NCBI GenBank assembly: GCA_023382385.1
Contig: JAHDVH010000002.1
Span: 386,219 to 450,218, forward strand
Reading direction: 5' to 3'
Length of the DNA: 64,000 nt
Source of the DNA: a bacterium
GTDB lineage: Bacteria; Electryoneota; RPQS01
Every line of letters starts with the position of its first letter. Positions within the stretch are counted from its first letter, which is position 1. The notes beneath the pieces were generated by a model, which saw nothing but the letters and a program-made list of their open reading frames with translations, made no database searches and had not been told where the DNA came from. This document shows positions 12,373 through 38,493 of this stretch, piece by piece. The translations under genes and the position numbers were made by a program.

Positions 12373-12401
12373 TTGACTTTTTGTAAATATTGTATTATAT
12401 T
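12373..12401 (+). promoter_or_regulatory. Orphan sigma70-like promoter
   Basis: TTGACT, 17 bases, TATATT on the plus strand. No plus-strand gene follows; a transcript would run antisense into the 3' end of the GT39-like gene. The surrounding 70 bases resemble 52066-52130, including the shared ACTTGAC and TATTATATTAG blocks. Confidence 0.45.
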
Positions 12402-33970: not shown

Positions 33971-35653
33971 TCACTTTAGGAACACTATCTTGCGTGTTTC
34001 AACTGCAGATCGATCTGAGGCCCGCAAGAAGTAGATTCCACCTGCGAGCGTTCGTGGTGCCTCAAACATTAGCTCCCCGCCGGATAGATTTCCTGTATGC
34101 ACAACAGCTTGCTCTCTGCCCAGAATGTCAAACAGAGTTAGTTTGAAATCCTGACGAGTGAACCCGGCCAATTCAATCTTCAAAGTCGAGTTAAACGGAT
34201 TGGGAAAAACGGACAAGAGCCTCCATGTCGAATTGACTCCTGGACTCAGGCGTCGGAAATCGCTTGACATCGACGTGTCAGGCGGCTCCATCAGCCACGG
34301 TTCAAACTCAACGATACTCAAAAGTAGAGTATCACCTTGTCCATCTGGATTCCTCGTCGGATGGAAGGGTCCGCTTTCGTGGCCCCACCAGTTGTTGCGA
34401 GCATCAATCGTCGGGGGATTCGGAATCCACGCTTCGCGATAGAAAACGGTGCCGACATTATCCTCAAAGACATTTGAATCAAGTCTTCCCGGCATAGGGC
34501 CTTGGTTGTCAAAGGAGAAAACAGAACCGCCGCTATTCCCATCCTGTTGATTGCCAGTGAAGATGTTGTGATGAAAGAACACACTTCCAGAGGGAACAAT
34601 ACATGCCCCGCGAGCGCCATACCCATCTCGAACAATGTTGTGTGAGAACTCACCTTGACAATCCCACAGGTAGACAGCGCCGACCCGGTCAAGCATGGTA
34701 TGTGATTCTATTACATTACCTGAGAAGAATGGGACACCAAACCGTCGAAAATCAAAGATAACAACAGCCGCATCATTTGATGTGTTGCCACGAAATATGC
34801 AATTTCGAGTCTCCACATTACCCAGAGTCAGCAAGTGGCATGCACCAAAGAACTGAAATGACCACGGATTTCCGTTTGTCTCAAACAAACAGCCTTGCAC
34901 AAGTGAATTGTCGCTTTCCAAGACAGCAGCACCCATTATACCCCCGCACTGGCGTAATGTACAAGCTACCATCATCGCGTATCCACCCAAGTGGGCACCA
35001 CCCGCAGACTCCCGAGAGGTACACGCTTCCATCGTACAGAACTGCAAGATCGCGGCAGATTGAAAAGTGAAGAGGCCGCCGCCAAACCGATCTGCATTGC
35101 AATTCTGTAGAGAACTATATTGTATATCCAGAAGGCCTTCTGCAGAGTCGGGAGTATTAGACATAACCGCAATGCCTCCGCCTCGTTGCGCACTACAATT
35201 CATGATACGGGAGTTTCTGATCACGACACGACTGGCATTCGTATGAAGTCCGCCTCCGGCAATCCAATCATCGGACGGACCATGCCAGACCGTACCTCGT
35301 CCCTCCCAGAGAGTAAGACCAATCATCGTCAGACTATCAGTCATGGGGAGCGAAACAATGAAGCAACTCGCGCTGTCAGGATCGGCAAGCTCCGCCTCAA
35401 CGATTGTGGCAATTATGTGACTGGAATCTCCCTCGAGAAGATACGCGCTGGCGATTACGATCGAGTGATCAAGCACACGTACAGACTCTCGGTACACGCC
35501 GTCGCGAAGTAGTATCGTATCACCTGCACTCGCCTCTCTAATTGTCGCGGAGATTGAATAGCTGGAGTCGATCTCAATCACCGCGCATAAACCCTCACCA
35601 ACAATGCTTAGTGGCAAGATCAAAAAACAGTGCGCGATGCAATTAGCACACAT
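33971..35653 (-). CDS. Secreted right-handed beta-helix protein with T9SS sorting domain (copy A)
   Basis: About 560 residues. Signal peptide (MCANCIAHCFLILPLSI...), then a beta-helix with ISATIREASAGDTILLRDGVYRESV as first rungs and many N-x-x-D/N-N turns (for example SNVFEDNVGTVFYRE), ending in NNWWGHESGPFHPTRNPDGQG. The last 80 residues are a T9SS domain (FPNPFNSTLKIEL). The ATG at 35653 has GGAG upstream; a GTG at 35668 overlaps the preceding gene's stop by 4 bases. It should be a cell-surface protein; its target is unknown. Copy B (36369-38051) has the same layout and the same NYWGHESGP-type motif. Confidence 0.82.
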   Translation of the reverse strand: MCANCIAHCFLILPLSIVGEGLCAVIEIDSSYSISATIREASAGDTILLRDGVYRESVRVLDHSIVIASAYLLEGDSSHIIATIVEAELADPDSASCFIVSLPMTDSLTMIGLTLWEGRGTVWHGPSDDWIAGGGLHTNASRVVIRNSRIMNCSAQRGGGIAVMSNTPDSAEGLLDIQYSSLQNCNADRFGGGLFTFQSAAILQFCTMEACTSRESAGGAHLGGYAMMVACTLRQCGGIMGAAVLESDNSLVQGCLFETNGNPWSFQFFGACHLLTLGNVETRNCIFRGNTSNDAAVVIFDFRRFGVPFFSGNVIESHTMLDRVGAVYLWDCQGEFSHNIVRDGYGARGACIVPSGSVFFHHNIFTGNQQDGNSGGSVFSFDNQGPMPGRLDSNVFEDNVGTVFYREAWIPNPPTIDARNNWWGHESGPFHPTRNPDGQGDTLLLSIVEFEPWLMEPPDTSMSSDFRRLSPGVNSTWRLLSVFPNPFNSTLKIELAGFTRQDFKLTLFDILGREQAVVHTGNLSGGELMFEAPRTLAGGIYFLRASDRSAVETRKIVFLK

Positions 35654-35664
35654 CATCACTCCAC

Positions 35665-36093
35665 TCACTGGCTAGGCTGTTGCGGACATAATGCTTGCTG
35701 ATAGTACTGACTATTGTTGTCATATCCTATACAGGTAGCTTCTCCTCCTGATGCGATCGTAGCGCTCGCATCGTAAGACACTGCTCCTCCTCCAATCTGG
35801 ACCCAGCCGGAAGAACACTTAGATCTGGGACCTGTTGACTGCACTGCCGCCACACAGCGAACTTGACCGTTTTGCACAATTTGCGAGATCGCAGTGGAAC
35901 CAAGCGTCGCTGTTGCAAATACATAGTGCACACCAGAATATGACGGCCAAAGAACCACGCTTTCGTTATCGTGCTGCGTGAAGGTGAATTTCTGATCTCA
36001 TGCATCTACTCTAAATGTGGCGGCGAGTAGAAGCAGAACCCCGGCGAAGATTGCTGGAAGTTGTGTGCTCTTCACTTCGTCTAAGTACTTCAT
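35665..36093 (-). pseudogene. Small secreted protein interrupted by in-frame TGA
   Basis: A strong start (GGAGAGG six bases before the ATG at 36093) opens a signal peptide MKYLDEVKSTQLPAIFAG... of 31 codons, ending VDA. Codon 32 is TGA (36000-35998). The same frame then stays open for 110 codons (DQKFTFTQHDNESVV... to CPQQPSQ), with four cysteines, and ends at the beta-helix gene. No function is recognised. Possible readings are a recent nonsense mutation, read-through, a sequencing error, or restart at an internal GTG (35958). It occupies the same place as the Cys-rich gene at 38056-38493. Confidence 0.65.
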
Positions 36094-36147
36094 ATTTCCT
36101 CTCCCATGTCTGGTTACCTCTCGCAGGATTGCGTCGAGGGCACCAAC

Positions 36148-36179
36148 AATATACTACCCCCCCCCCCCGTATTTGTCAA
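36148..36179 (-). promoter_or_regulatory. Promoter with a 12-G homopolymer in its spacer
   Basis: Minus strand: TTGACA (36179-36174), then AATAC, G12 (36168-36157), then TAGTAT (17-base spacer) or, three bases on, TATATT (20-base spacer). Slippage of the G-tract would change -35 to -10 spacing. The -35 lies 86 bases before the ATG, almost the same as in the paralogous cassette (85). Confidence 0.65.
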
Positions 36180-36288: not shown

Positions 36289-36312
36289 GAGGCGAGCTGA
36301 AAGGCTCGCCTC
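36289..36312 (-). terminator. Hairpin after beta-helix gene copy B
   Basis: GAGGCGAGC and GCTCGCCTC arms (9 bp, 6-base loop), followed on the minus strand by a T/C-rich tract. Sixteen bases of its right side match the 33897 hairpin exactly. Confidence 0.65.
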
Positions 36313-36368: not shown

Positions 36369-38051
36369 TCACTTTATGAACAGCAGTTTTGCCGTCGAGG
36401 GAATCCCTTCATCCGTAGACAGTCGGGCGAAGTAGAGGCCGCTGGCGGATGTTTCCGGCCGCCAGTCGCGAACATGAACGCCTGCGCGAATCTTCTCGTC
36501 AAGAAGAGTCGCAACGCGCCGGCCAGTGAGATCAAATATGTCGAGTGAAATCTTCTGGTCCTTCAGCAGCACGAACTCGATGGTCACGCTGCTGTTGAAG
36601 GGGTTTGGATAGGCATTTCCAATGAAACTCTGCGGCACTGAAACCGGAACACGCGGCTCGGGAACACTCGCAAGGAAGCTCGTGTCCTCTTCCCACGGCT
36701 GATAGTTGATTCTCCATTCCACCGTGTCTCCCAATCCGCCCGGATTTCCGACAGAATCGTACGGCCCGGATTCATGTCCCCAATAGTTCCGCCGGGCGAA
36801 GGATGTTCCATTGAGGTTTCCCTGAAAGACAGCGTATCCGATGTTTCCCTGCATGACGTTGTAGTTAAAATCCGTATCGCCGTTTCGGTAGAGCAAGACC
36901 TGACCGGAAGGCGGCCACGAGATAGACTCGTTTGAACACTCCAGAATGTAGTTGTTGGAGACAACGCGAGGCGACTCATTGATCTCGAACAAGTTTCCCA
37001 ACGATGTATGACCAAGACTGAAGCCGCGCACAAGATTATGCATGATCATAACGGTCGTGCGCGTTCGGGACAACGCGAAGAGTCCATGCATGCCGTAGGG
37101 CCACACTCTTGTGAAATCTTCAAACACGTTTCCACGACAAAAGAAAGTGGTCAAACTGTCCGGACCGCCCTGACTGTAGATCGCGCCGCTGAGTCGCTCA
37201 TTCGTGAACCGACAAGAGTCAATTCGCAGAAAGTCGAGATACTGACCGCCCCTGTGAATGAAATTCGCCCAATGATTGTCGTGAAAATACGTGTTTGAAA
37301 TTTCCACGGTATCAGGTGGCTTTGACGCATACACGAAGTAGCAACCGTCAGGGTTGGGCCCCCTTCCACAGTTCCTGACTTCCGAGTTGATCAACGTCAG
37401 ATGCGTGAGCCGTATTCCGATTTGTTCCGGTCGCTCATCCTCGTCATCATATGATGTGCTTTCTTCGATGAGACATGAGTCCATCACCACCTGAGATTCG
37501 ACACTCCGGACTGCTGCGCCGAACCTGTTTGCACCACAGAATGTGAACGAACAATTAGAGATAGAAGTCACGGATTGTCGTACTCCTACTCCCCCGCCAT
37601 AGCCGGCCTTGCAGGAATCGAATTTGCAATGCTCAATGCTGACAACTTGACCAAAGACCCGAATCGCGCCGCCTGATTCGTCGTGACGCGCTGAACTGGT
37701 CGCGAATCGAAGTCCGACGACTCTGCAGGACGGAAGGGGTCCGCCGTCATCTTCGATTGAGATTGCTCTGATGGTGTCGTCTCCGCTCGTGTAGCCACGA
37801 ATCACGCAGGAATCGATATCGCCGAGCACTCCTGTTTCAAGAAACCTGCCTGCGATCGTCAGGCCCATGGACGGAATGCTGACCGCCTCAAGATAGGTTC
37901 CACTCGAGATCAGAACTGTGTCGCCTTGCTGTGATGCCGTAACGGCAGACTGAATACTGCCGTATACTTGAGGGACTCTTCTGACAGCGGCAAGTGAAAC
38001 TTCCCCGCTCAAGACGACCATAGTTACGGCTATTAAAGCAATCAACCGCAC
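36369..38051 (-). CDS. Secreted right-handed beta-helix protein with T9SS sorting domain (copy B)
   Basis: About 560 residues, the same length as copy A. Signal peptide (MRLIALIAVTMVVLSG...), first rungs YGSIQSAVTASQQGDTVLIS and SGTYLEAVSIP, many helix rungs, then RRNYWGHESGPYDSVGNPGG and a C-terminal T9SS domain (YPNPFNSSVTIEF, ending SGLYFARLST). I use the GTG at 38051, which follows the upstream stop; a GTG at 38081 would overlap it by 26 bases. Probably surface-exposed; function unknown. Confidence 0.8.
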   Translation of the reverse strand: MRLIALIAVTMVVLSGEVSLAAVRRVPQVYGSIQSAVTASQQGDTVLISSGTYLEAVSIPSMGLTIAGRFLETGVLGDIDSCVIRGYTSGDDTIRAISIEDDGGPLPSCRVVGLRFATSSARHDESGGAIRVFGQVVSIEHCKFDSCKAGYGGGVGVRQSVTSISNCSFTFCGANRFGAAVRSVESQVVMDSCLIEESTSYDDEDERPEQIGIRLTHLTLINSEVRNCGRGPNPDGCYFVYASKPPDTVEISNTYFHDNHWANFIHRGGQYLDFLRIDSCRFTNERLSGAIYSQGGPDSLTTFFCRGNVFEDFTRVWPYGMHGLFALSRTRTTVMIMHNLVRGFSLGHTSLGNLFEINESPRVVSNNYILECSNESISWPPSGQVLLYRNGDTDFNYNVMQGNIGYAVFQGNLNGTSFARRNYWGHESGPYDSVGNPGGLGDTVEWRINYQPWEEDTSFLASVPEPRVPVSVPQSFIGNAYPNPFNSSVTIEFVLLKDQKISLDIFDLTGRRVATLLDEKIRAGVHVRDWRPETSASGLYFARLSTDEGIPSTAKLLFIK

Positions 38052-38055
38052 GGCT

Positions 38056-38493
38056 CTACTCAGGATTGCAGTTTGGCGCACAAACCGCTGCTGTAGCGGT
38101 GGAGAAGTACACTGTGCCGGATCCGGACTCGCAACTTCCCTCGCACTCCTTGCACTTCACCTTAAACCTTAAGATATGATTCTGTCCGATTGCGTGATTC
38201 TCGACCGTCGTTTCGTTTCCGCATCCGCAAAGATCATCAAGTATCCAGAACCTAAACCATTCCGCTCCACCCACGATATCCCAGCATTCGAGCACTACTT
38301 TGTTGTCTTCGTCGCCATCATAGTGTATGTAGGTCTTTGTGACTTGTTCTCCGGAGGGAATCGTGAATTCCACCGTCGACCAATCGTTGTCGCAGCAAAC
38401 GTCAGTCACGTAGACGCACATACTTGCTTCGGTTTGCGCAAGCATTGACGCGCACAATCCGAACAGCATACCCATCATCACCAGCGACTTCAT
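38056..38493 (-). CDS. Small cysteine-rich secreted protein
   Basis: A 145-residue protein with signal peptide MKSLVMMGMLFGLCASMLAQ. The mature part has about 13 cysteines, many paired or closely spaced (VCCDN, LCGCGN, CKECEGSC, CAPNC), suggesting disulfides or metal binding, and an acidic tract (HYDGDEDN). No known family is recognised. It sits immediately upstream of beta-helix copy B, as the TGA-interrupted small gene does for copy A, so the pairs may work together. Confidence 0.7.
   Translation of the reverse strand: MKSLVMMGMLFGLCASMLAQTEASMCVYVTDVCCDNDWSTVEFTIPSGEQVTKTYIHYDGDEDNKVVLECWDIVGGAEWFRFWILDDLCGCGNETTVENHAIGQNHILRFKVKCKECEGSCESGSGTVYFSTATAAVCAPNCNPE

Follow-up and report, generated by a model that had tools for sequence, protein, structure and literature searches.

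A homopolymeric G12 tract in a promoter spacer of an uncultured Electryoneota bacterium is probably one of a set of surface-cassette switches

Does a run of twelve G inside a promoter spacer act as a genetic switch and, if so, for which genes? The run considered here lies on the minus strand of a 64,000-nucleotide stretch of contig JAHDVH010000002.1 (hereafter the window), from a bacterium of the uncultured phylum Electryoneota. Most known cases of homopolymer phase variation come from host-adapted bacteria such as Neisseria, Campylobacter, Helicobacter and Treponema. The first-pass annotation of the window proposed that the tract makes transcription of a surface cassette phase-variable. Here we analyse the promoter, the genes behind it and the related loci of other genomes, and conclude that G12 is probably a contingency, or phase-variation, tract in a sigma70-type promoter and one of a set of switches for surface cassettes.

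Read from 36179 down to 36147 the promoter is TTGACA-AATAC-G12-TAGTATATTG, and its -10 region is a double one, TAGTATATT. Five bases plus the tract result in a sigma70-type spacer of 17 nt to TAGTAT and of 20 nt to TATATT (Table 1), which is the geometry that the first-pass annotation had described. The promoter shares with those of the porA/tp0126 type a homopolymer of at least eight bases between -35 and -10 and a 17-nt spacing at one tract length. Nowhere in the 2,901,770-base genome does a longer G/C run occur and only one other place has a run of at least 10. Exact homopolymer counts hinge on assembly quality, with one assembly per species. Under a first-order Markov model of the window, 0.002 runs of at least 12 are expected per window and approximately 0.09 per genome. 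The perfect GC-rich hairpin upstream is likely the terminator of the preceding cassette, which would make the G12 promoter an independent unit.

Table 1. Features of the G12 promoter, the cassette behind it and the neighbouring tract-less cassette (window positions).
Feature	Positions	Strand	Basis or remark
Perfect 8-bp GC-rich hairpin AGGCGAGC-6-GCTCGCCT	36290..36311	-	Direct reading; comparable upstream hairpins in G001:C14, C17
-35 hexamer TTGACA	36174..36179	-	Direct reading; identical hexamer in homologous promoters
G12 homopolymer, spacer positions 6-17 (C12 on plus strand)	36157..36168	-	Direct reading
First -10 register TAGTAT, 17 nt from TTGACA at G12	36151..36156	-	Direct reading
Second -10 register TATATT, overlapping the first; 20 nt from TTGACA at G12, 17 at G9	36148..36153	-	Direct reading
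ORF1 start (small secreted protein): ATG 36093-36091, signal-peptide-like 31-residue leader, in-frame TGA 36000-35998	35998..36093	-	Homologues have Trp at the TGA position
Remaining ORF1 frame of 110 codons (DQKFTF...PSQ) up to the stop; small beta-sandwich protein of type I, cut from its leader by the TGA	35665..35997	-	42% identity to G001:C14; fold taken from this homologue
ORF2: right-handed beta-helix protein of 565 aa, ending in a T9SS sorting domain	33971..35668	-	Beta_helix 3.9e-11; Por_Secre_tail 2e-06
Neighbouring tract-less cassette, ORF1: small secreted protein of type II, Cys-rich, intact at 145 aa	38056..38493	-	Beta-sandwich model, pLDDT 77
Neighbouring tract-less cassette, ORF2: 570 aa paralogue with T9SS sorting domain	36369..38081	-	Por_Secre_tail 7.8e-07

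The cassette behind the promoter is a two-gene unit of which the first gene is broken. Matching against the whole genome identifies a single TGA inside ORF1, right after the signal peptide, and a GTGA joins the two genes, the GTG of ORF2 overlapping with the stop of ORF1. Since the TGA, at a conserved Trp codon, breaks the small gene, the G12 promoter serves at most the beta-helix gene. The first-pass annotation had suggested that tract length could tune or switch both the small protein and the beta-helix T9SS protein; the former has to be dropped, being truncated, and only the latter can be retained. Por_Secre_tail scores of 28.4 and 29.7 bits, versus a Pfam cut-off of 27, mark the two ORF2 products as putative T9SS type A cargo, and the combination of Beta_helix and Por_Secre_tail domains in ORF2 predicts that its product is exported to the surface or secreted. 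The neighbouring gene pair at 38493-36369 is a cassette of the same kind with ORF1 intact and without a tract. Structure models of the small proteins are predicted eight-strand beta-sandwiches (pLDDT 77 and 83). A Pfam search of these proteins found no domain, and a fold search recovered only weak resemblance to beta-sandwich, lectin-like or CBM-like folds, with TM below 0.5 for nearly all, for which reason we claim no function for them. Broken ORF1 copies with lesions outside tracts were also encountered elsewhere: G001:C34 (L057) has a TAA at codon 2, and G001:C17b (L074, about 13000) and G005:C285 (L152) have frameshifts. Turnover of the first cistron is common, the TGA of the window resembling these three broken copies.

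The architecture recurs in relatives. The pattern TTGACN{0,11}G8N{0,12}TATATT finds eight sites versus none in the reversed control among 11 family genomes, five of which contain it, and nine versus none among 39 phylum genomes; a relaxed pattern of TTGACA plus at least six G gives nine sites versus one in the control. The sister species G001 has four sites (G11 on C3, G11 on C8, G8 and G9 on C17), and further family sites occur in G006 (G12), G004 (G9) and G009 (G9). All family sites that match the G8 pattern are upstream of a beta-helix or beta-helix/T9SS gene, usually at 440-530 bp with the small gene in between. Besides poly-G, spacers with poly-C (G006:C165, G008:C2) and poly-T were found, the latter as T13 and T10 with TATAAT or TATACT at 19 nt (C2:868.4k of the window's own genome, G000; G005:C501). 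According to a hand tally, about 20 of the 32 cassettes found by protein homology, which do not form an exhaustive census, have a homopolymer of at least seven at the promoter spacer or in the ORF1 leader codons. Since such tracts recur before, or at the start of, approximately two thirds of the gene pairs of this kind that we examined in the bacterium and its relatives, they are very probably no fluke but switch surface proteins on and off, or set their volume, at random. This is in line with the phase-variable transcription that the first-pass annotation had inferred. A chance origin of the tract was rejected, given both the recurrence of the pattern versus controls and the Markov expectation.

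A public pattern scan yielded 28 loci, many of which are probably chance hits. Two of the more useful hits are in other bacteria: a KSB1 MAG (L099, L101) has two paralogous poly-G spacer promoters, G10 and G12, before small secreted-type ORFs, and Streptococcus ovuberis (L088) has a poly-G spacer promoter before a YSIRK-type surface protein.

Sister cassettes show a further point of control: in seven of them, codons 9-12 of ORF1 contain a run of G7-G10, and tract length there sets the reading frame; five of these fit one search pattern that has no control hits. The leader frame is open in G000:C2:834934 (G8), G004:C141 (G8), G004:C283 (G9) and G001:C18 (G7), and closed, with a peptide that ends after 13-14 residues, in G001:C10 (G7), G003:C207 (G7) and G003:C208 (G10). 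This class lends further support to the phase-variable reading, as do the length differences between paralogues described below. Other coding tracts were observed in FG-GAP-like secreted proteins of the sister species, where G9-G13 runs lie inside long frames (G001:C6:28175, 30467 and 32378, i.e. L053 9175, 11467 and 13378; G001:C11:109518, i.e. L055 6519). Two of the four runs close the frame and an adjacent frame continues for 270-374 codons, which suggests that these are further coding contingency loci of G001. Near the start of another beta-helix gene, G000:C2:741600-741660 (L012 6600-6660) is dense in G/C and A runs (C9, G10, A-rich), which reflects either a start region of low complexity that has degenerated or a fault of the assembly.

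Tract lengths differ between similar copies, all of them paralogues from one assembly per species and not alleles of one locus. C17a and C17b have G8 versus G9, with 48 identical bases downstream and upstream identity of only 11 bases; C207 and C208 of G003 have G7 versus G10 with 134 identical bases upstream; and C34 and C37 have C9 versus C8 between near-identical flanks, with 48 identical bases upstream. The two similar promoters of the KSB1 MAG differ likewise (G10 versus G12). MutS is present in the genome, hence no general slippage-prone background is evident, and loss of mismatch repair was rejected as a cause.

How tract length might translate into output can be judged from the spacing of the promoters. 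In 408 kb of own-genus sequence from both species, tract-less TTGACA-TATATT pairs peak at 17 nt (n=7), which makes 17 nt the local norm, and each of the four pairs at 20 nt belongs to a tract promoter. Of ten tract-less cassette promoters whose -10 can be recognised, eight have exactly 17 nt. Among tract promoters, TAnTAT beside TATATT is found at 17 nt in five of six (the window, G001:C3, G001:C8, G001:C17b and G004:C37) and at 16 nt in C17a; the binomial probability is 9e-5 if nine spacings are equally likely, for a count that was picked post hoc and that omits G001:C17m (G6 tract, 12/15 nt). The latter departs from the 17-nt rule, and G006:C193, with CATTAT at 17, follows it loosely at best. 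Judged by these spacings, 17 nt to TAnTAT is likely the active state. Two tract-less promoters of the window, at 12373 (+) and 52091 (+), have TATTATATT with TATATT at 17 nt and TATTAT at 14 nt. Stable genus promoters with TATTATATT use registers 14/17 and tract promoters 17/20, and since the stable ones use the other register, a G9 tract would use TATATT. The earlier suggestion that G12 suits TAGTAT and G9 suits TATATT agrees with this family spacing. With a double -10, one of the two hexamers stays at 16-18 nt from G8 through G13, and the overlap may thus buffer single-base slips, with perhaps modest effects on output.

This buffering leads to a possible sub-version of the phase-variation reading, compatible with it, that we rate below even: the tract might be a rheostat rather than a switch. 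TAGTAT and TATATT, three bases apart, would keep a usable -10 at G8-G13, slippage would tune promoter strength and shift the start by 3 nt, and only very short or long tracts would turn the cassette off. That TAnTATATT is common to the tract promoters of both species speaks for it, and so does the comparison of registers 14/17 with 17/20, by which both registers look usable. However, if all lengths worked there would be no reason for exactly 17 nt at five of six loci, and the leader-codon tracts of sister cassettes are clearly all-or-none. The same leader-codon tracts argue against a static role for G12, as a spacer that does not switch or as an element for binding or structure, with a length that is constant in the population. 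Frequent as the 17-nt spacing is, near-identical copies differ in tract length and homologous sites use G, C or T, which is at odds with base-specific binding; we consider such a static role very unlikely.

The state of the first gene counts against a working switch. ORF1 is broken here by the TGA at the conserved Trp, and several other copies by the non-tract mutations described above, so part of the cassette family may be decaying and G12 might be the leftover switch of a dead operon. A relic of this kind is unlikely, as the ORF2 frame is intact over 565 codons with both domains and the promoter has a well-formed 17-nt spacer. Some sequencing platforms are prone to errors in homopolymers, so that the true length may not be exactly 12. 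Yet independent assemblies of other species show the same architecture at homologous loci, and we rejected a sequencing or assembly artefact as highly unlikely.

For the preferred reading, that of a contingency tract, we propose that replication slippage lengthens or shortens the G12 run, which would alter the distance from TTGACA to the double -10 (TAGTAT/TATATT) and with it the transcription of the downstream cassette, in the window at most that of the beta-helix gene. Many cassettes of the genus and family are predicted to combine a small secreted beta-sandwich protein with a T9SS-exported beta-helix protein of approximately 560 residues and have a tract in the spacer or the leader codons. 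Switching across these cassettes would let each cell display its own mix of surface proteins. More tentatively, with a likelihood that we put just short of even, the tracts could form a family-wide contingency system in an uncultured T9SS-bearing phylum, in which stochastic switching acts at two interchangeable points (spacer or leader codons) and the two-register -10 serves as a stepped volume control.

The mechanism itself is known from porA of Neisseria meningitidis and tp0126 of Treponema pallidum, where, as in the window, poly-G lies between -35 and -10 of surface-protein promoters, with an optimum there of 17 nt; in T. pallidum (tp0126/tpr) poly-G occurs in the promoters of several outer-membrane protein genes (PMC7864442). 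Unlike the system described here, porA is one gene instead of a multi-cassette family and encodes a porin instead of T9SS cargo, and the double -10 is a feature of the present system. In T. pallidum the tprL tract is at the -10/TSS instead of in the spacer, and no leader-codon counterpart is described in the same family. Neisseria opa resembles the leader-codon class in that the frame depends on a repeat within the codons of the leader peptide (PMC3960869), but the repeat is the pentamer CTCTT and not poly-G. Moreover, opa and porA are different gene families, whereas here both control points are found within one cassette family. Neisseria opc likewise has homopolymer-controlled transcription of a surface protein, but its poly-C covers the -35 (PMC7864442), and its grouping with spacer tracts in the first-pass annotation was inexact. 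The literature searched contained no relevant report of phase-variable T9SS cargo or of phase variation in uncultured phyla, and use of the mechanism on several cassettes of T9SS cargo in such a phylum appears to be new.

Several promoters and several leaders of one surface-protein family thus carry switch tracts, aimed at T9SS cargo, in an uncultured phylum. They point to strong selection for surface diversity, for instance from phages, predators or partners, and counts of tract length in metagenome reads would suffice to test for such selection.
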